From Betaproteobacteria bacterium (GTDB lineage Bacteria; Pseudomonadota; Gammaproteobacteria; Burkholderiales; JACQAP01): 64,000 nucleotides of DNA. Positions 23,287 through 62,189 of the stretch are shown one piece after another. A program made the position numbers and the translations under genes. Numbering within the stretch: position 1 is the first letter of the stretch; every line of letters starts with the position of its first letter. The stretch is taken from NCBI GenBank assembly GCA_016194905.1, contig JACQAP010000020.1:62001-126000 (forward strand). The letters run 5' to 3'. The notes under the pieces are model-generated. The model had not been told where the DNA came from. It was given only the letters and a program-made list of their open reading frames with translations, and did no database searches.

Positions 23287-23628
23287 TTACGTTGCGCGTC
23301 GGCGTTGCGGCTGCAGCAAGGTGGCGATTGCCGCATCGACGCGGCCATTGGGCTGCACCTGCAGCCATGCGCTGATATCGATGACCAGGGGCCGAATCTC
23401 GTCGATCTTCAGTTCCGCGGCTCGGAGGGCCGATATGAGTTCACTGGCGACTACGCGGATATAACTCCCCTCGGGGGCCAGGCTTTGCGATACCAGCCCT
23501 ATCGCCAGGAGATCGGAGCGATGACTTTCACGGAACCAGGGTTTGCCGATGGCTTCCAGCCCGACCAGCGCGGGAAGTTCTGTTTTGATGGGATTCTTGA
23601 TCCCGAGGGGAAGAAGCCGCTTTTTCAT
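23287..23628 (-). CDS. Hypothetical protein
   Basis: 113 residues with natural composition: a basic start (KKRLLPLGIKNPIK), the block LVGLEAIGKPWFRESHRSDL, a helix LISALRAAELKIDEIRPLVI and a basic tail. No signal peptide or membrane span. I believe similar short proteins occur in other Burkholderiales, but I cannot name a function. No good ribosome site precedes the ATG at 23628. Leftward, possibly cotranscribed with the nitrobindin-like gene downstream at 22991, though 295 bases separate them. Confidence 0.6.
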   Translation of the reverse strand: MKKRLLPLGIKNPIKTELPALVGLEAIGKPWFRESHRSDLLAIGLVSQSLAPEGSYIRVVASELISALRAAELKIDEIRPLVIDISAWLQVQPNGRVDAAIATLLQPQRRRAT

Positions 23629-23680
23629 CGATTGTGAAACGGCATAAAAACCGGTTTCTTGAGCCCGTAGATGAAGACCC

Positions 23681-23741
23681 GAAAATGAAACGCCCCGGTC
23701 GCTTTCGCGAACGGGGCGTTTTTACTGCCAGGCATTCCGGC
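23681..23741. terminator. Terminator hairpin within a dispersed repeat, copy 2
   Basis: AAACGCCCCG (23688) pairs with CGGGGCGTT (to 23720), followed by T on the plus strand and preceded by AAAATGAAA, which is a T run on the minus strand, so it can act both ways. Second copy of the block at 16926-16990. On the minus strand it directly follows the mini-gene at 23742-23825. Confidence 0.75.
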
Positions 23742-23825
23742 CTAGTTGCCAGCCAGACTCCTGAACCCTGCGGTTGATCCAGTTCCAGAGTGCTGCCGAC
23801 CGGTGCTGCCTTGGTTGTCTCTCAC
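23742..23825 (-). CDS. Mini-gene with perfect Shine-Dalgarno site (27 codons)
   Basis: Minus strand: AAAGGAGGTGATCC, the exact complement of the 16S rRNA 3' end, sits seven bases before a GTG at 23825. The frame (VRDNQGSTGRQHSGTGSTAG...) stops at TAG 23742-23744. A sigma-70-like promoter lies 33 bases further upstream and a terminator follows, so this is a complete small transcription unit. Read one frame over after codon 12, the DNA encodes LWNWINRRVQESGWQLGRN and ends exactly at the terminator, which looks more like real protein; a single-base deletion may have split an older ~35-residue gene. No family known. Confidence 0.4.
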   Translation of the reverse strand: MRDNQGSTGRQHSGTGSTAGFRSLAGN

Positions 23826-23857
23826 GGGATCACCTCCTTTCAAAGTTGCCAGACATT

Positions 23858-23885
23858 AGTGTATCAAAAGGAATGCGAACTTCAA
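23858..23885 (-). promoter_or_regulatory. Sigma-70-like promoter of the mini-gene
   Basis: On the minus strand TTGAAG (23885-23880), 16-base spacer, TACACT (23863-23858). The predicted transcript starts about 25 bases before the GTG at 23825. The -10 box is identical to that of the amidohydrolase promoter. Confidence 0.5.
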
Positions 23886-24099
23886 GCGCCCGAAACCGGG
23901 CCAAGCCTGTACAGTTGCGGAAGTTGTGGACATCCCGTCGACCGCAGCATTCTGCAAGCCGGCCGGCGTTATTTCATTTGTAGGTCATCCGACACCTCGT
24001 TAAGCGCACAGGCAGCGTAGAAAGGCGCCCATCAAAACCCCGAAAAGAACCCGGCCGCCCGTCGATGAAGGCCTCGTCGACGAGGTCATCGGCCAGCTC

Positions 24100-24888
24100 A
24101 TGAGCGACAAGGAAGCGGTGGTCTACGTCGTGCGCTGCGGGGAAGAGATTCGCTGCGCAAAGGTGTACAAGGAGGCCAACCAGCGCAGCTTCCGCCAGGC
24201 CGTTCAGTACACCCAAGGCCGCAAGGTCAAGAACAGCCGCCGTGCCCGTGCCATGGAGAAGGGCTCCCGCTACGGGCGAAAGGAGCAGGAGGAGGCTTGG
24301 CAGCACGCCGAAGTCGACGCCTTGCGCCGTCTCGCGGCTGCCGGCGTGCGCGTTCCGCAGCCGTATAATTTTCTGGATGGCGTGCTGCTGATGGAGCTGG
24401 TGAAAGACGACAACGGCCATGCCGCGCCGAGGCTCAACGATCTTGCGCTGACACCGGAGCAGGCCCGCGAATATCATCACACGCTGATCATGCAGGTCGT
24501 ACGCATGCTCTGCGCCGGCGTCGTCCACGGTGATCTGTCCGAATACAACGTGCTCGTCGGCAGCGACGGGCCGGTCGTCATCGATCTGCCGCAGGCCGTC
24601 GACGCCGCGGGCAACAACGGCGCCGAGGCCATGCTGGAGCGGGACGTCGACAACCTGACCGCTTACTTCGGCCGCTTCGCTCCGGAACTTCGAACCACCG
24701 ACTACGGCAAGGAAATCTGGTCGATCTACGAAAGCGGCGCGCTTCAGCCCGATGTCGCGCTGACCGGTTGCTTTGTGCGCAGTGAAGATCCCGTCGGCGT
24801 AAACAGCGTCATTCGCGAAATCGACGATGTGGTGAAGGAAGGAGCGGCACGTCAACGCCACAGGCAGGCGCTGGAGTTCGAGAAGTAG
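24100..24888 (+). CDS. RIO-type serine/threonine kinase, conserved start codon reads ATC
   Basis: 262 residues from the first ATG. Kinase motifs are intact: the ATP-region lysine in CAKVYKEAN, the catalytic loop VHGDLSEYNVL (Asp and Asn present) and the metal-binding Asp in VVIDLPQAVD. Bacterial RIO relatives are ~280 residues and begin about 23 residues earlier with a sequence like MKTPKR. Here the same residues are encoded directly upstream (IKTPKRTRPPVDEGLVDEVI), but the expected ATG is ATC at 24031, with AAAGG six bases ahead of it. No ATG, GTG or TTG lies between the preceding in-frame TAA (24001) and 24100. Either AUC initiates, or a shortened protein starts at 24100. Targets of bacterial RIO kinases are poorly known. 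Confidence 0.85.
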   Translation: MSDKEAVVYVVRCGEEIRCAKVYKEANQRSFRQAVQYTQGRKVKNSRRARAMEKGSRYGRKEQEEAWQHAEVDALRRLAAAGVRVPQPYNFLDGVLLMELVKDDNGHAAPRLNDLALTPEQAREYHHTLIMQVVRMLCAGVVHGDLSEYNVLVGSDGPVVIDLPQAVDAAGNNGAEAMLERDVDNLTAYFGRFAPELRTTDYGKEIWSIYESGALQPDVALTGCFVRSEDPVGVNSVIREIDDVVKEGAARQRHRQALEFEK

Positions 24889-49954: not shown

Positions 49955-52900
49955 TCAGGCGCCTGCGGTCACGGCCGGAGTGCGACCGCGACGACGCTCA
50001 TTCCAGGTCCTGGCCCTCTCGAGATAAAGGTAGATCACCGGTGTGATGTACAGGGTCAGCAGTTGCGACACCATCAATCCGCCGACGACTGCGAGACCCA
50101 GCGGCTTGCGGGCTTCCGATCCGGCGCCGAGACCCATTGCGATCGGCAGCGTGCCCATCAGTGCCGCGGCCGTCGTCATCATGATCGGCCGGAACCGGAT
50201 CAGGCAGGCCTCGTAGATCGCCTGTTCGGGCGGCTTGCCGTCCTTGCGCTGCGCTTCGATGGCGAAGTCGATCATCATGATGGCGTTCTTCTTCACGATG
50301 CCGATCAGCATGATGAGTCCGACGAAGCCGTACATGTTGAGGTCGAGCTTGAACAGCATCAGCGTCAGCAGCGCACCGAAGCCGGCGGTCGGCAGTCCGG
50401 ACAGGATCGTGACCGGATGGACGTAGCTCTCGTAGAGGATGCCGAGGATCAGGTAGATCACGAAGATCGACATGATCAGCAGCATGCCCATCCCGGCCAA
50501 CGACGACTGGAATGCCTGCGCCGCGCCCTGGAAGCTGCCGATCACAGTCTGCGGAATGCGCAGGTCGGCGACGAGCTTGTTGAGCTGGCCGATCGCCTGG
50601 CTCAGCGACACGCCCGGCTTCAGGTTGAACGACAGCGTTACCGCCGGCAGCTGTCCCTGATGGGTGACCGTCAACGGGCTGACTCCGCGTTCGACGCGAG
50701 CCACCGACGACAGCGGCACCAGCGTGCCCGTGCCCGAGCGCACGTAGAGCAGGGACAGCGCTTCGGGGCTGGACTGGTACTCCGGCGCCAATTCCAGGAT
50801 GACCCAGAATTCGTTGCTCGGCGTGTAGATGGTCGACACCTGACGCGAGCCGAATGCGCTGTAGAGGGCGTCCTCTATTTGTTCCGCGGTCACGCCCAGG
50901 GAGGAGGCCTTGTCGCGGTCGATCTGCACCTTCACGGTCGGATTGGTGATCTGCAGGTCGCTGTTCACGTCGATGAATTCGGGCAGGCTGCGCAACTTCG
51001 CTTCCAGGATCGGCGCCCAGTGATACAACTCCTGGGTATCGGCATCCTGCAGCGTGTACTGGTATTCGCTCTTGGTCACCTTGCCGCCGATGCGCACTGG
51101 AGGGATATTTTGCAGATACACCTTCATGCCGGGTATGGACGTGAGCTTCGGCCTCAGCTCCTGGATGATGGCGTCCGCGTGCAATCTTTCCTTGCGCGGC
51201 TTCAGGCGTATGAAAATGCGGCCGAGGTTCAGCGTCTGGCTCGATCCCGAAGAGGAAGGACCGATGAAGGCCATGGCGGCCTCGACGTTCGGGTCGGCTT
51301 GCACGATCCGCGCCGCCTGCCGTTGTTTCGCCGCCATGGCATCGAAGGAAATATCCTGCGCGGCCTCGGTGAAGATCAGCAACTGCCCGGTGTCCGTGCT
51401 GGGCAGGAAGCCTTTCGGCATGGCCGCGAACAGCCATGCGGTCACGCCGAATATCGCGAAGAACACCAGCATCGTGACCCGGCTGTGTCTGATCGACCAT
51501 TTCAGCGTCGAGTCGTAGACGTCGCGCACCGCATCGAACGCGCGCTCGCTCCACCGGTAGATCCTGCCGTGGCGGTCGTGCGCGACCGGGCGCAGCCAGC
51601 GGCTGCACAGCATCGGCGTCAGCGACAGCGACACAAAACCCGATACCAGCACGGCGGCCATGATGGTGACCGCGAACTCGTGCAGCAGCTTGCCGAGAAT
51701 GCCGCCCATGAACAGAACCGGAATGAACACCGCGGCGAGCGACAACGTCATCGACACGATGGTGAAGCTGACTTCGCGCGCGCCTTCCAGCGTCGCCTGC
51801 ATGGCGGCCTTGCCCATTTCCATGTGGCGGCTGATGTTCTCCAGCATGACGATGGCGTCGTCGACGACGAAGCCGACGCAGAGCGTGAGCGCCATCAGCG
51901 AAAGATTGTCCAGGCTGTAGCCCAGCAGATACATTACCGAGAAGGTGCCGACGATCGACATCGGCAGCGCCAGGCTGGGAATGAGCGTGGCGGAGATATT
52001 GCGCAGGAAAAGGAAAATCACCAGCACCACCAGCGCGAGCGCGAGCATCAGCGTGAACTGCACGTCATTCACGGATTCGCGCACCGAGTCGGAACGGTCG
52101 TAGAGGATATCCATTTTCAGGCCGGCCGGCGCCTGCGCGCGGAAAGTCGGCAGCAGCTTTTTGATCGAATTCACGATCTCGATGGTGTTGGTGCCCGGCT
52201 GGCGCTGGATGGCGAGCACAATGCCACGCTCGTCGTTGAGCCAGGCGGCAAGCTTGTCGTTCTCCACGCTGTCGATCACCCGGCCGATTTCGCTCAGCCG
52301 CACCGGCGCCCCGTTGCGATACGCGATCACGATCGGACGGAATGCCGCCGCATTCTGCAGCTGGCCGTTCGATTCCACCGTATAGGCGCGATGCGCGCCG
52401 TAAAGCGTGCCGGTGGGCAGGTTGGTGTTGTGCCGGTTGATCGCGCCGGCAATCTCGTCGATGCCGATGCCGCGGGAAGCGAGCGCCTTTGGATCGAGCT
52501 GCACGCGCACCGCGTATTTCTGCGAGCCGATGATCTGCACCTGCGCAACGCCGTTGATCGTGGAAATGCGCTGTGCAAGCAGCGTCTGCGCGTATTCGTC
52601 CACCGTCGACATCGGCAGCGTCGTCGAGGTCAGGGCAAGGTAGAAGACCGGTGCGTCCGCGGGGTTGACCTTCTGGAATGCCGGCGGCGTGGTCATCTGC
52701 GGCGGCAACTGCTTCAGCGCGCGCGTGATCGCGGCCTGCACATCCTGTGCGGCGGCATCGATGCTGCGGTCGAGCGAGAACTGCAGCGTGATGCGGCTTA
52801 TGCCCTGTGCATTGGTGGAGTCCATCGAATCGAGGCCGGCAATCGTGGAGAATTCCTTCTCCAGCGGCGTCGCCACGGCGGAAGCCATGGTCTCCGGGCT

Positions 52901-53062
52901 TGCGCCCGGCAGCGACGAGGTTACCGCGATCGTGGGGAAATCGATGTTGGGCAGGTCCGACACCGGCAGCAACCGGTAGCTGACGACGCCGAAGGTCAGA
53001 ATGCCGAGCATGATCAGGCCGGTCATGACCGGCCGGCGGACGAAGATCTCGGCGATGCTCAC
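49955..53062 (-). CDS. RND efflux pump inner-membrane subunit (second system)
   Basis: 1035 residues, full length. Two large periplasmic loops between twelve helices, start EIFVRRPVMTGLIMLGILTF, proton-relay Asp pair in [17 protein letters not shown] (helix 4), and conserved [18 protein letters not shown]. Proton-driven exporter of the HAE1 group, partnered with the adaptor encoded immediately upstream (four-base ATGA overlap). It must use an outer-membrane channel, likely the NodT-type protein encoded at 54341. Last gene of the cluster. Substrates probably drugs, dyes or solvents. Confidence 0.94.
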   Translation of the reverse strand: MSIAEIFVRRPVMTGLIMLGILTFGVVSYRLLPVSDLPNIDFPTIAVTSSLPGASPETMASAVATPLEKEFSTIAGLDSMDSTNAQGISRITLQFSLDRSIDAAAQDVQAAITRALKQLPPQMTTPPAFQKVNPADAPVFYLALTSTTLPMSTVDEYAQTLLAQRISTINGVAQVQIIGSQKYAVRVQLDPKALASRGIGIDEIAGAINRHNTNLPTGTLYGAHRAYTVESNGQLQNAAAFRPIVIAYRNGAPVRLSEIGRVIDSVENDKLAAWLNDERGIVLAIQRQPGTNTIEIVNSIKKLLPTFRAQAPAGLKMDILYDRSDSVRESVNDVQFTLMLALALVVLVIFLFLRNISATLIPSLALPMSIVGTFSVMYLLGYSLDNLSLMALTLCVGFVVDDAIVMLENISRHMEMGKAAMQATLEGAREVSFTIVSMTLSLAAVFIPVLFMGGILGKLLHEFAVTIMAAVLVSGFVSLSLTPMLCSRWLRPVAHDRHGRIYRWSERAFDAVRDVYDSTLKWSIRHSRVTMLVFFAIFGVTAWLFAAMPKGFLPSTDTGQLLIFTEAAQDISFDAMAAKQRQAARIVQADPNVEAAMAFIGPSSSGSSQTLNLGRIFIRLKPRKERLHADAIIQELRPKLTSIPGMKVYLQNIPPVRIGGKVTKSEYQYTLQDADTQELYHWAPILEAKLRSLPEFIDVNSDLQITNPTVKVQIDRDKASSLGVTAEQIEDALYSAFGSRQVSTIYTPSNEFWVILELAPEYQSSPEALSLLYVRSGTGTLVPLSSVARVERGVSPLTVTHQGQLPAVTLSFNLKPGVSLSQAIGQLNKLVADLRIPQTVIGSFQGAAQAFQSSLAGMGMLLIMSIFVIYLILGILYESYVHPVTILSGLPTAGFGALLTLMLFKLDLNMYGFVGLIMLIGIVKKNAIMMIDFAIEAQRKDGKPPEQAIYEACLIRFRPIMMTTAAALMGTLPIAMGLGAGSEARKPLGLAVVGGLMVSQLLTLYITPVIYLYLERARTWNERRRGRTPAVTAGA

Positions 53063-55968: not shown

Positions 55969-58900
55969 TCATGCTGGATTTCCAACCGTTTCGACTGGCC
56001 GCGTGCGCCTGGCGAAAGCGCGCTTGCAATAAAAACGGAAGCGGTCCAGGTAGAGATAGACCACTGGCGTGGTGTAGAGCGTGAGCATCTGGCTGACGAT
56101 CAGGCCACCGACGATCGAGATGCCGAGCGGACGGCGCAGTTCGGCGCCGTCGCCGAATCCGACGGCGAGCGGTATTGCACCGAGCAGCGCGGCCATGGTC
56201 GTCATCATGATCGGACGGAAGCGCAGCAGGCAGGCCTGGTAGATCGCCTGCTCGGGCGTCATTCCCAGCCTGCGTTCGGCATCGAGCGCGAAGTCGATCA
56301 TCATGATCGCGTTCTTCTTGACGATGCCGATCAGCAGAATCACGCCGATCAGCGCGATGATGCTGAATTCGGTTCCGCATACGAGCAGCGCGAGCAAGGC
56401 ACCGACGCCGGCTGAGGGCAGGGTCGACAGGATGGTGAGCGGATGCACGAAACTTTCATAGAGTATGCCGAGCACGATGTACACCGTCAGCAGCGCGGTC
56501 AGGATCAGCCAGGGTTGGCTGTTCAGCGAAGCCTGGAATGCGCGCGCAGTGCCCTGGAAGCTTCCCTGGATCGAAGTCGGTACGCCGATGCGGTTGAGCG
56601 CGTCGTTGATCGCGCGCGTTGCGTCCGACAGTGCAACGCCGACCGGAAGATTGAACGAAATCGTCGAGGCGACGAACTGTCCCTGGTGGTTCACTGCAAG
56701 CGGCGTGCTGGTCGGGCCGTAGCTCGAGAAGGCCGACAGCGGCACCTGCTTGCCATCGGTGTTGCTCACGAACACGTCATCCAGCGCGTCCGGGCTTTGC
56801 CAGTATCGGGGCGCGGCTTCCATCACCACGCGGTATTGATTCAGCGCTGTATAGATGGTCGACACCTGACGCTGGCCGAACAAGTCGTTGAGCGTGGCGT
56901 CGATCGTGCGCGGGCTGACGCCGAGCCGTGAGGCGGCGTCGCGGTCGATATTCAGCGAAGTCTGTATTCCCTTGTCCTGGCTGTCGGTGTTCACGTCGGC
57001 CAGTTGCGGCAACTGGGTCAGCGCCTGACGGATGCGCGGTTCCCACGCGCGCAGTTGAGCGAGATCGTCCGCCTGCAGCGTGTACTGGTACTGCGCATTG
57101 GCCGCGCGCCCGCCCATGCGGATGTCCTGCACCGGCTGCAGGAACAGGCTGGCGCCGGGCTCGCGCGCAAGCTTGCCGCGCAATCGCGCAATCACCATGT
57201 CGGCGGACATCTTGCGCTGCGATAGCGGCTTGAGCGAGATGAACATCTGGCCGCTGTTGCGCTGTCCGCCGCCGGTAAAACCGATGACGTTTTCCACTGC
57301 CGGGTCCTGGCGCACGATCTCGATGAAATCGGCGAGCTTTTTCTGCATGGCCTGGAACGAGATGCCCTGGTCGGCCTGAATGGACCCGCTCAACCGGCCG
57401 GTGTCCTGCTGCGGAAAGAAACCCTTGGGCACGATCACGTAGAGATAGACGTTCACGCACACCGTCGCCGCGAGCAGCAGCATCATGAAGGGGCTGTGCC
57501 GCAGCCCCCACCCGAGCGAGCGCTCGTAACCGTGCAACAGCGAGTCGAAGGCGCGCCGGCTGAGTCGCGACAGCCGGCCCGGCTCGGCCTCCGGTTTTTC
57601 CGGCCGCAACAGGCGTGCACACATCATCGGCGTGGCAGTAAGCGAGAGCACCAGGGACACCAGGATCGCGACCGACAGCGTGACGGCGAATTCGCGGAAC
57701 AGCCGGCCGATGATGCCGCCCATCAACAGGATGGGGATGAACACGGCGATCAGCGACAGGCTCATCGACAAGACCGTAAAGCCGACTTCGCGCGAGCCCT
57801 TGAGCGCGGCTTCCATCGGTGGCACGCCTTCTTCGATGCGGCGGGAGATGTTCTCCAGCACTACGATGGCGTCGTCCACGACGAAACCCGTCGCAACGGT
57901 CAGCGCCATCAGCGACAGGTTATTGAGACTGTAACCGGCCAGGTACATCACGCTGAATGTGCCGAGCAGGGACACCGGGACGGCCACGGTGGGGATCAGG
58001 GTCGCGGAAGCTTTGCGCAGGAACAGGAAAACTACCATGACTACCAGTGCAATGGAGATCAGCAGTGTGCGTTCGACTTCATGCAGCGAAGCGCGGATGG
58101 TCGGTGTACGGTCTATCACCACCGCCAGGTCGATCGCGCTCGGGATCGACGCCTTCAGCAACGGCAGGGTCGCCCGGACCCGGTCCACGGTCTCGATGAT
58201 GTTCGCCCCCGGCTGCCGGTTCAGGATGACAAGTACGGCCGGCTTGCCGTCGGCCGATCCGGCGTTGCGCAAGTCCTGAACCGAATCCGTTACTTCGGCG
58301 ACGTCCGACAGGTGCACCGCGGCGCTGTTGCGGTAGGCGACGATCAGCGGCAGATACTCGGCAGCTGCCCTGGCCTGGTCGTTGGCGTAGATCTGCCAGT
58401 GCCGTGCGCCGTCCTCCACCATGCCTTTGGGCCGATTCGCATTCGCCGCGGCAATCGCATTGCGCACGTCCTCCGTACCGATGCCGTACTTGTGGAGCGC
58501 CGACGGAAGCAGCTCCACGCGTACCGCCGGCAGAGAACTGCCGCCGACGGAAACCTGGCCGATGCCTTCAATTTGCGAGAGCTTCTGCGCAAGGATGCTG
58601 GATGCGGCGTCGTACAACTGGCCGCGAGTCATGGTTTCCGATGTCAGCGACAGAATCATGATCGGCGCATCGGCCGGATTGACCTTGCGATAGGTCGGAT
58701 TGCTCGGCAATCCGGTGGGTAGCAGCGCGCGCGCGGCATTGATCGCCGCCTGCACGTCCCGCGCCGCGCCGTCGATGTTGCGGTCGAGGTCGAATTGCAG
58801 CGTGATGCGGGTCGAGCCCAGCGAACTCGACGACGTCATCTCGGTGATGCCGGCGATGCGGCCCAACGCACGCTCCAGCGGCGTCGCCACTGTTGCGGCC

Positions 58901-59076
58901 ATGGTTTCCGGACTGGCCCCCGGCAGCGAGGCCTGCACCGAGATCGTCGGAAAGTCCACCTGCGGCAACGGCGACACCGGCAGCAGCCGGAACGCCATGA
59001 CGCCCGACAGGGCGATCCCCACCGTGAGCAGGGTGGTCGCCACCGGGCGGTGGATGAAGAATTCGGAGAACTTCAC
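55969..59076 (-). CDS. mdtC: RND efflux pump subunit, MdtC/MuxC-like
   Basis: 1035 residues. Start [20 protein letters not shown], periplasmic loops with [20 protein letters not shown], and the proton-relay pair in [17 protein letters not shown]. In MdtABC/MuxABC pumps two different RND chains form a mixed trimer; this is the second chain (C), its ATG overlapping the stop of the B gene by four bases. Exports bile salts, novobiocin-like and other amphiphiles in known systems. Confidence 0.92.
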
Positions 59077-62000
59077 GGCCGCGCGCTCCCGGTCTGCGCT
59101 TCCTCGACGGGCTTTCTGGCCTGCATTCCGCGTCGATGCGCCAGCCGGTCGAAAGCGAGATAGATCACCGGCGTCGTGAACAGCGTCAGCGCCTGGCTGA
59201 CCAGCAAGCCGCCGACCATGGTGATCCCGAGTGGATGCCGCAATTCCGAGCCCACGCCGCTGCCTAGCATCAGCGGCAGTGCGCCCAGCAGCGCGGACAG
59301 CGTCGTCATCAGGATCGGACGAAAGCGCAGCAGGCAGGCCTGGCGGATGGCTTCGCGCGGGCTCTTGCCTTCGTTGCGTTCGGCGTCGAGCGCGAAGTCG
59401 ATCATCATGATCGCGTTCTTCTTGACGATGCCGATCAGCAGGATGATGCCGATGATGGCGATGATGCCGAGGTCGGTGTGCGAAAGCATCAACGCCAGCA
59501 GCGCGCCGACGCCGGCCGAGGGCAGCGTGGACAGAATCGTGACCGGATGGATATAGCTTTCGTACAATACGCCGAGCACGATGTACATGGTCACGATCGC
59601 CGCCAGGATCAGCAACAGTGTGTTGTTCAGGGACGATTCGAACGCAAGCGCTGCGCCCTGGAAACTGGTCTGCGTGCTTGCCGGCAATCCGATCTCCGCT
59701 TCCACCGCACGAATCGCGCGAACTGCATCCCCGAGGGAAGATCCGGGGGCAAGATTGAATGAGATCGTGCTCGCCGGGAACTGGCCCAGGTGATTGATGG
59801 AAAGAGGCGCCGTATGTTCGTTCACGCGCGCGATCGCGGACAGCCGCACCTGTTGTCCGTCCGTCGAGGTGACGAAAATGTCGTTGAGCGCGGCCGGGCC
59901 TTTCTGAAAGTCGGGCTGTACCTCGAGCACGACGCGATACTGGTTCGACTGCGTGAAGATGGTCGAGATCATGCGTTGGCCGAATGCGTTGTAGAGCGCG
60001 TTGTCGATCGCGGCCGGCGTGATGCCGAGCCGCATCGCGGTATTGCGGTCGATCTCGACGTAGGCCTGCAATCCCCGGTCCTGCAGGTCGCTGGCGACAT
60101 CGGCGAGCTGCGGCGACGCGCGCAGGCGCTCGACCAGTTTCGGCACCCAGATGCCCAGATTGTTTGCATCCGCATCTTCCAGGCTGAACTGATATTGCGT
60201 GCGGCTGACGCGGTCCTCGATGGTCAGGTCCTGCACCGGCTGCATGTAGAGCGAGATGCCCGCGACCTGCGCGAGCTGCGGTTGCAATCTGCGGATGACT
60301 TCAGTGGCGTCGATGCCGCGCGCCTTCAACGGTTTGAGGTTGATCAGCATGCGGCCGCTGTTGAGCGTCGCGTTGCTGCCATCCACGCCGATGAACGACG
60401 ACAGGTTTTCCACCGCAGGATCCTGTAACACGACTTTGGCGAGGTCCTGCTGGCGTTGCGCCATCGCCGCGAAGGAGATCGACTGCGGCGCCTCGGAGAT
60501 GCCCTGGATCACGCCGGTATCCTGCACCGGGAAAAAACCTTTCGGCACGAAGAAATAGAGCAGCACGGTCAACGCCAGCGTGCCGAGCGCGACCAGCAGG
60601 GTGGCGGCCTGGCGGTCCAGCACCCAGTCGAGCATCCTGCCGTAGCGTGCGATCACCGCGTCGAAGAAGCGGCCGCCCGAGCGATAAAAGCGGCTTTGCT
60701 CCCCTTCCGGGATATGGCGCAGCAGCCGCGCGCACATCATCGGCGTAAGCGTCAGCGAGATGAATGCGGAAATCAGGATCGCGACCGCCAGCGTGATGGC
60801 GAATTCTCGGAACAGGCGGCCGACCACGTCGCCCATGAACAGCAGCGGAATCAATACTGCGATCAACGAGAAGGTCAGGGAGATGATCGTGAAGCCGATC
60901 TGCTCGGCGCCCTTGAGCGCGGCTTCCAGCGGCTTCATGCCTTCCTCGATGTAGCGCGCGATGTTCTCGATCATGACAATCGCGTCATCGACGACAAAAC
61001 CGGTGGCGATGGTCAATGCCATCAGCGTGAGGTTGTTGATGCTGAATCCAGCCAGGTACATGACGCCGAAGGTGCCCACGAGGGACAGCGGTACCGCCAC
61101 GCTCGGAATGAGGGTGGCGGCGACGTTGCGCAGAAACAGGAAGATCACCATGACCACCAGCGCTACGGCCAGCAGCAGTTCGAATTGCACGTCCTTGACC
61201 GACGCGCGGATCGTCGTCGTGCGATCGGTAAGCAGGTCGACGTCCACCGAACCGGGCAGCGTGGCCTGCAACTGCGGAAGCAGTTTCTTGATGCGATCCA
61301 CCACCTCGATCACATTGGCGCCCGGCTGACGCTGGACGTTCAGGATGAGCGCCGCCTTGTCGTTGGCCCAGGCGGCGAGGCGCACGTTCTCCGCGTCGTC
61401 GACGACATCCGCGACGTCGGTCAGCCGGATCGGCGCGCCGTTCTTGTAGGCGATGATCAGGCGCTGGTATTCGTCGGCGGACTTGAGTTGATCGTTGGCA
61501 TCGATCGTCGAGGCACGCGACGGGCCGTCGAAACTGCCTTTGGCCTGATTGACGTTGGCATTGCCGATCGCGGTACGCAGATCATCCAGGCTCATTCCAT
61601 AGGCTGCCAGCGCTTTGGGGTTCGCCTGGATGCGCACTGCGGGGCGCTGGCCGCCTGACAGACTTACCAGCCCCACGCCCGGCAACTGCGAAATCTTCTG
61701 CGCGATGCGCGTGTCGATCAGGTCCTGCACTTTGGGCAGCGGCAACGAGTTCGACGTGATGGCCAGAGACAGGATGGGCGTATCGGCGGGATTGACCTTG
61801 TTGTAGATCGGCAGCGACGGCAGGTCCTGCGGCAGCAGCGAAGCGGCTGCGTTGATCGCGGCTTGTACCTCTTGTTCGGCGACGTCGAGCGGCAGGTCGA
61901 GGCTGAACTGCAACGTAATCACCGATGCGCCACCGGAACTGGTGGACGACATCTGGTTCAATCCCGGCATCTGGCCGAACTGGCGCTCCAGCGGCGCGGT

Positions 62001-62189
62001 GATCGAAGAGGTGGTAACGTCGGGGCTCGCGCCCGGATACAGGGTGACGACCTGGATGGTGGGATAGTCGACTTCCGGCAGCGCCGATAATGGCAGCAAG
62101 CGATAGGCGACGATGCCGGAAAGCAGAATGGCGACCATCATCAGCGAGGTCGCCACCGGACGCAGAATAAACAGACGCGACGGATTCAT
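59073..62189 (-). CDS. mdtB: RND efflux pump subunit, MdtB/MuxB-like
   Basis: 1038 residues. Start [40 protein letters not shown] in the first periplasmic loop, and proton-relay Asp pair in [17 protein letters not shown]. The [16 protein letters not shown] wording is typical of MdtB/MuxB and separates it from the C chain. Follows the adaptor gene after twelve bases. Confidence 0.92.

Follow-up and report, generated by a model that had tools for sequence, protein, structure and literature searches.

In the window, by which we mean the whole 64,000-nucleotide stretch of DNA that was analyzed, the gene for a RIO1-like protein kinase carries ATC (24031–24033, plus strand) at the position of the family start codon. 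Comparison with relatives indicates that this non-canonical first codon is real, conserved and recurrent, and that it is most likely used as the start. The reading that we favor, and consider probable, is that AUC at 24031 serves as the start of the RIO kinase, that it would be a slow start of the kind rejected by IF3, and that the level of the kinase would hence be low. In several relatives, this position is likewise occupied by AUC or another irregular codon, which argues for a start that is probably real but weak and that would limit the kinase.

The kinase gene, its first codon and its leader

The gene occupies 24031–24888 on the plus strand (285 amino acids counted from the ATC, with the stop codon included in the coordinates) and belongs to the PA4780 family. 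Its product matches Pfam PF01163 at 1.7e-44 and scores 467.8 bits against NF041645, the NCBIfam equivalog for PA4780 family RIO1-like kinases, for which the curated cut-off is 350. The whole profile is covered, positions 1–273 of 274 being aligned with residues 1–273 of the window's kinase. Because profile position 1 aligns at the ATC, this codon represents the first residue of the family, and the original prediction, which had placed ATC at the family-conserved start, is borne out in this respect. The motifs HGDLSEYN and IDLPQAV are present. Residues H166, G167, D168, L169, S170 and N173, and residues I184, D185, L186 and P187, do not vary among 35 aligned sequences, the window's included; we take these two segments (H166–N173 and I184–P187) to be the RIO catalytic and metal-binding motifs. 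The top phmmer match is RIO1 (9.5e-17), and Foldseek matches the kinase fold best to pre-40S-bound human RIOK1 and to Rio1 of A. fulgidus.

From 24031 the window reads ATC AAA ACC CCG AAA AGA, in frame with the kinase. An in-frame TAA (24001–24003, plus strand) closes the upstream frame 30 bases before the ATC, and the nine codons from the TAA to the ATC (GCG CAC AGG CAG CGT AGA AAG GCG CCC) include no start. The next in-frame ATG, GTG or TTG is the ATG of codon 24 (24100–24102, plus strand), and a reading of the codons agrees with the earlier claim that none of these triplets occurs between the TAA at 24001 and the ATG at 24100. Use of codon 24 as an alternative start would delete a helix (residues 5–12) and a strand (residues 18–24), which the AlphaFold model places in the N-terminus as a predicted part of the kinase fold. 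The mean pLDDT of the model is 81.7, with means of 83 for residues 1–10 and 90 for residues 11–20.

The AAAGG that had been noted ahead of the ATC is present at 24021–24025 (plus strand), at a spacing of five bases and not the six first given. It is a weak Shine-Dalgarno-like stretch (duplex of −3.4 kcal/mol) within a leader block common to several relatives, and the alignment places this GCGCAGAAAGGCGCC-like block directly before the start in several clade members. At −3.4 kcal/mol, the window has no strong or extended Shine-Dalgarno of the sigR, cvfC1 or ccpN type. The pairing with the 16S tail has a median of −3.15 kcal/mol in the 10 ATC genes and −3.20 kcal/mol in 118 ATG genes. Stronger Shine-Dalgarno sequences among the non-canonical genes are confined to L034 (−6.5 kcal/mol) and to L274, L309 and L310 (−6.6 to −6.9 kcal/mol), the last three having AGGAG before codon 1. 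A possible small hairpin (24011–24029, plus strand; −6.4 kcal/mol, with 8% of shuffles as low) adjoins the start codon. A leader hairpin of the form GCGC-AGAAAG-GCGC was considered and dropped, as 5% or fewer of the shuffles were as low in just three of 16 leaders (L028, L043 and L119), the window's not among them.

First codons and N-termini among relatives

The genomes compared include three congeners of the window's genome (G000). Two of them, G002 and G003 (proteins 87% identical), have ATC at the same codon behind a different upstream sequence, and the third, G001 (protein 77% identical), has TTG at the RIO start. The original prediction had envisaged sister strains with ATG; both sister species carry ATC. 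Altogether, ATC is the first RIO codon in ten distinct genomes: that of the window (L001), those of the two sister species (L021, L022), and those of L028, L032, L034, L045, L268, L269 and L295. The other irregular first codons are ATA (L078, L274) and GTC (L309, L310), and an irregular first codon is kept across species.

The frequency of such codons was gauged in samples of different scope. A first survey of 100 loci, consisting of whole genomes plus the 80 best named contigs with duplicates counted, returned ATG in 86, ATC in nine, GTG and TTG in two each, and ATA in one. With 23 loci added, the distinct coding sequences (n = 109) comprised ATG 97, ATC 7, TTG 2, GTG 2 and ATA 1. An even draw of the window's order contained 399 genomes, 125 of them with a RIO match; once two weak matches (G290, G138) were omitted, the 123 clear genes began with ATG (113), TTG (5), GTG (2) or ATC (3), and all three ATC genes came from the window's genus (G000, G002, G003). 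Eighty of these 123 genes, fetched separately, had ATG in 76 cases, TTG in three and GTG in one. A further search, centered on the ATC genome G402, pointed to a family of 98 genomes. Matches turned up in 35 of these, and omission of the weak one in G509 left 34 clear genes. Their first codons were ATC (7), GTC (2), ATA (1), GTG (3), TTG (1) and ATG (20), i.e., non-canonical in 10 of 34. Over all distinct full sequences (n = 140, a set biased towards relatives of ATC genes), the counts were ATG 118, ATC 10, GTG 5, TTG 3, ATA 2 and GTC 2. Weak second matches (G241, G339, G506, G507, G400, G502) and the infC fragment L137 were left out of the start counts. Three metagenome-assembled records (L024, L032, L093) bear the title Bordetella parapertussis; their RIO genes group with uncultured betaproteobacteria, and the titles look wrong.

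In a tree of 61 chosen RIO sequences, the ATC genes fall into group A (L001, L021, L022), group B (L045, L028, L032, L034) and group C (L268, L295, L269), with L269 paired with the long ATG branch L013. Group D unites the ATA gene L274 with the GTC genes L309 and L310, and the ATA gene L078 stands alone. Groups A and B are each uniform for ATC. The starred branches of the tree cannot be reconciled with fewer than four gains or losses of the non-canonical state, or with fewer than two for ATC alone; this state therefore recurs or is lost repeatedly.

The codons that follow the ATC are under constraint in clade B, where codons 2–23 have a pS of 0.542, a pN of 0.067 and a pN/pS of 0.124, and the ratio further on is 0.126 (codons 24–60) and 0.229 (codons 61–200). 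Within residues 2–26, all 13 strongly conserved positions are kept in L021, L022 and all four clade B sequences, a scoring that omitted L268, L269 and L295. The suggestion that AUC acts as a rare initiator thus gains support from comparison, in that the sister species share the ATC and the N-terminus is kept in six other ATC genomes. Codon 24 is not Met in five of 109 family sequences (K in three, T in two). In one of these, L078 (RBG_16_57_12), codon 1 is ATA, codon 24 encodes Lys and the first in-frame ATG, GTG or TTG comes at codon 66. This gene, from one metagenome-assembled genome, would be the cleanest single case for obligatory initiation at codon 1.

Alternative readings of the ATC codon

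The window's own copy shows possible signs of drift. These bear on the alternative, in our judgment unlikely, that the window's species has lost, or is losing, this start, the product being made from the ATG at 24100 (23 residues shorter) or the gene decaying, while the sisters still use AUC. Measured against the agreement of L021 and L022, codons 2–26 of the window hold four amino-acid changes (I7T, Q8R, L10P, G26D) and no silent one, compared to six amino-acid and 27 silent changes in codons 27–265 (Fisher p = 0.003 for the contrast). At both position 10 (L) and position 26 (G), the conserved residue is found in 108 of 109 sequences, and the sole exception is the window; G26 presumably belongs to the nucleotide-binding loop, by homology with other RIO kinases. 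The pN/pS of clade A is 0.589 for codons 2–23, where pS is low (0.161), and 0.080 and 0.128 further on. Constraint up to the first codon is seen in clade B, L021 and L022, and the excess change in codons 2–26 is a feature of the window copy. A −10-like box (TAAAAT, TAAGAT, TAGAAT, TAGACT or TAAACT), judged by eye, occurs in 12 of 13 aligned leaders and is missing from the window's. The leaders of L268 and L295, outside this 13-leader alignment, have no clear −10-like box, and a promoter scan of 23600–24150 found no promoter-like site. A start at codon 24 would also have GAGG 14 bases before the ATG at 24100 (−6.6 kcal/mol in a 20-base window).

Several observations speak against a lost start. 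Codons 27–265 of the window remain constrained, and the first codon is still ATC, the same as in both sisters. Initiation at codon 24 would leave G26D unexplained, as this change lies beyond that codon. Canonical clade mates commonly carry this GAGG too, and its distance from the ATG is probably too great for a good site. A codon-24 Shine-Dalgarno special to ATC genes was rejected, the median being −6.6 kcal/mol both in ATC genes and in 21 canonical clade mates (20-base window, one-sided p = 0.29). In a 15-base window, the ATC genes fared better than the clade mates (p = 0.04), at energies of −2.2 to +0.9 kcal/mol. Of the earlier claim of start loss, what stands is the excess of amino-acid changes in codons 2–26; the constraint on the rest of the gene speaks against the claim. 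Given the four amino-acid changes with no silent one and the missing −10-like box, the N-terminus in the window may be weakly expressed or slowly drifting, in the window's species only. Such drift would leave the case of the other ATC genomes untouched.

We consider it improbable that the mRNA is leaderless, with AUC as its 5′ end and no need for a Shine-Dalgarno sequence. In other branches, a −10-like hexamer (at least four of six matches) stands 6 bases before the start in 19 of 102 non-ATC sequences, the number at any other distance from 0 to 39 bases being at most eight, and the window has TAGAAA 7 bases before its ATC. This TAGAAA is not common to the sisters L021 and L022, and five ATC genes (L028, L032, L034, L045, L269) have TAAAAT 30–67 bases before the start, which implies a leader in those five. 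In the order at large, L016, L017, L018, L019, L223, L240 and other members have CACAAT, TACACT or TATACT some 5–7 bases before the RIO start, which suggests leaderless RIO mRNAs in those non-ATC branches.

Translation from a codon further upstream, canonical or other, with the ATC as an ordinary isoleucine codon, is less probable still. In-frame canonical codons do occur upstream in four of the ten ATC genes (L034, L045, L268, L269), as well as in the ATA gene L274 and both GTC genes (L309, L310). However, there is none between the upstream stop and codon 1 in the window's gene and five other ATC genes (L021, L022, L028, L032, L295), or in the ATA gene L078, and the window offers merely nine sense codons between its TAA and ATC. 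The upstream codons, read in frame, are not kept as protein: their pN is 0.478 in clade A and 0.589 in clade B, where the nine codons before the ATC change freely. Moreover, the upstream ATG of L045 and L269 overlaps the −10-like TAAAAT, and the TTG of L034 lies five bases after it.

Finally, a sequencing or assembly error for ATG at base 24033 can practically be dismissed: many related records are metagenome-assembled, but ATC is found in ten distinct genomes with differing upstream sequences, two sister species among them.

Initiation at AUC and comparison with known non-canonical starts

Initiation at the AUC of 24031 remains our preferred reading. The initiator tRNA (anticodon CAU) would pair with the AU of AUC and mispair at the third base. 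This mispair would make initiation slow and yield a complex of the type that IF3 rejects, and a start so slow and so disfavored would keep the RIO kinase at a low level. We infer the ribosomal start at AUC, its low yield, the setting of that yield by IF3 and the selection for a weak start; control by IF3 is proposed by analogy with infC and sigR, together with kinetic work that treats IF3 as a fidelity factor (PMC8266586). A bolder version, possible and put forward tentatively, would make the RIO gene a second infC, its start repeatedly taking an IF3-rejected form (AUC, AUA, GUC) and the amount of kinase being set by start-codon fidelity, i.e., by IF3 or the state of the 30S subunit.

Three tRNAs of G000 have the anticodon CAU, one of which is initiator-type (three G:C pairs in the anticodon stem and C-A at the acceptor end). 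An altered initiator tRNA was rejected as an explanation, for this single initiator-type tRNA looks ordinary. The 42 tRNAs of the G000 assembly (stretches L138–L168) lack tRNA-Ile(GAU) and tRNA-Ala(TGC), perhaps owing to missing rRNA operons. General use of AUC starts in the window's genome was likewise unsupported. Twenty-eight non-overlapping conserved ORFs of contig C20 were compared with stretches of three sister genomes, a small sample in which many pairs are distant paralogues, and the RIO gene was alone in being conserved for 30 codons beyond the first canonical start of both sequences. Three other flagged ORFs (3, 3 and 8 codons) look like loose alignment ends. The minus strand of the window also holds three ORFs of more than 1000 residues (49964–53059, 56038–59055 and 59076–62186), with relatives of 28–30% identity on G001:C4.

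The comparison with infC made in the original prediction proved apt. The aligned infC start is ATA in G000, G002, G003 and G008 and ATC in nine others, which covers 13 of the 13 genomes checked; by sequence, an AUA or AUC start is thus already in use for one gene in the window's genus. Five of the nine ATC infC genes (L124–L127, L129) also have a canonical in-frame codon upstream, none of them in the window's genus. The infC of G000 (L130, C29:170951–171457) belongs to the set L124–L136. A short second IF3-like frame (L137; genome G404, C185:3375–3521) encodes 59 amino acids and scores 53 bits, the family cut-off being 60; its N-terminus begins at ATC behind GAGGAG, and it may be a paralogue or a fragment.

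Outside infC, few non-canonical starts are conserved. One orthologous RIO gene with at least four gains or losses of such a start amounts to a natural experiment on the keeping of a poor start codon, and it provides a lead on the role of bacterial RIO kinases. A further suggestion is that gene callers restricted to ATG, GTG and TTG would shorten such proteins, for instance at codon 24. To our knowledge, the bacterial PA4780 type has no established ribosome role, and literature searches returned no paper on one. The window's kinase shares sequence and fold with archaeal and eukaryotic RIO1, and its likeness to RIOK1 and Rio1 invites the speculation that the bacterial kinase, too, might be linked to the ribosome. 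The searches, with most subscription journals outside them, likewise returned no paper that describes a bacterial RIO kinase with an AUC start.

Among the known systems, E. coli pcnB reportedly has an inefficient AUU start that limits expression. The likeness lies in this limitation, whereas the gene and the codon are different and there is no link to RIO. The infC gene resembles the RIO gene in its AUH start, in these same genomes too, but all four of its computed leaders have a strong Shine-Dalgarno sequence (−6.4 to −9.3 kcal/mol; −9.3 in G000), which most AUC RIO genes lack. No role in initiation is known for RIO kinase, and the parallel therefore implies no autoregulatory loop of the infC type. 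One study reports that infC is autoregulated through an ATT start in E. coli and starts with ATC in Streptomyces, and that IF3 represses the GTC start of Streptomyces sigR, a start found in 32 of 34 species; sigR also has the highly conserved ribosome-binding site AGGAGGTG (PMC5472188). As there described, sigR resembles the RIO gene in that it is regulatory and its non-canonical start is conserved, and GTC recurs in the RIO relatives L309 and L310. It differs in having AGGAGGTG where the window has AAAGG, and repression by IF3 is demonstrated for sigR and proposed for RIO.

In S. aureus, cvfC1 starts with AUU and ccpN with AUA. Both starts are conserved, are specified by extended Shine-Dalgarno motifs and were located by ribosome profiling; relative to AUG they yield about 10% in poor medium, and ccpN up to 30% in rich medium (PMC13009471). 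The conservation of a non-canonical start is shared with RIO, whereas the window's start has no extended motif of this kind and is known from sequence. Elsewhere, AUC is counted as one of the seven initiation codons that act most strongly in E. coli (PMC12350097). Of 61,358 ancestral AUG starts in a published reconstruction, one changed to AUU and two to CUG, counts derived from annotated starts, which some switches may have escaped (PMC5622118). Set beside these systems, the RIO gene would show two peculiarities, namely a family that repeatedly changes its start codon and an AUC start that mostly appears without a strong Shine-Dalgarno sequence.
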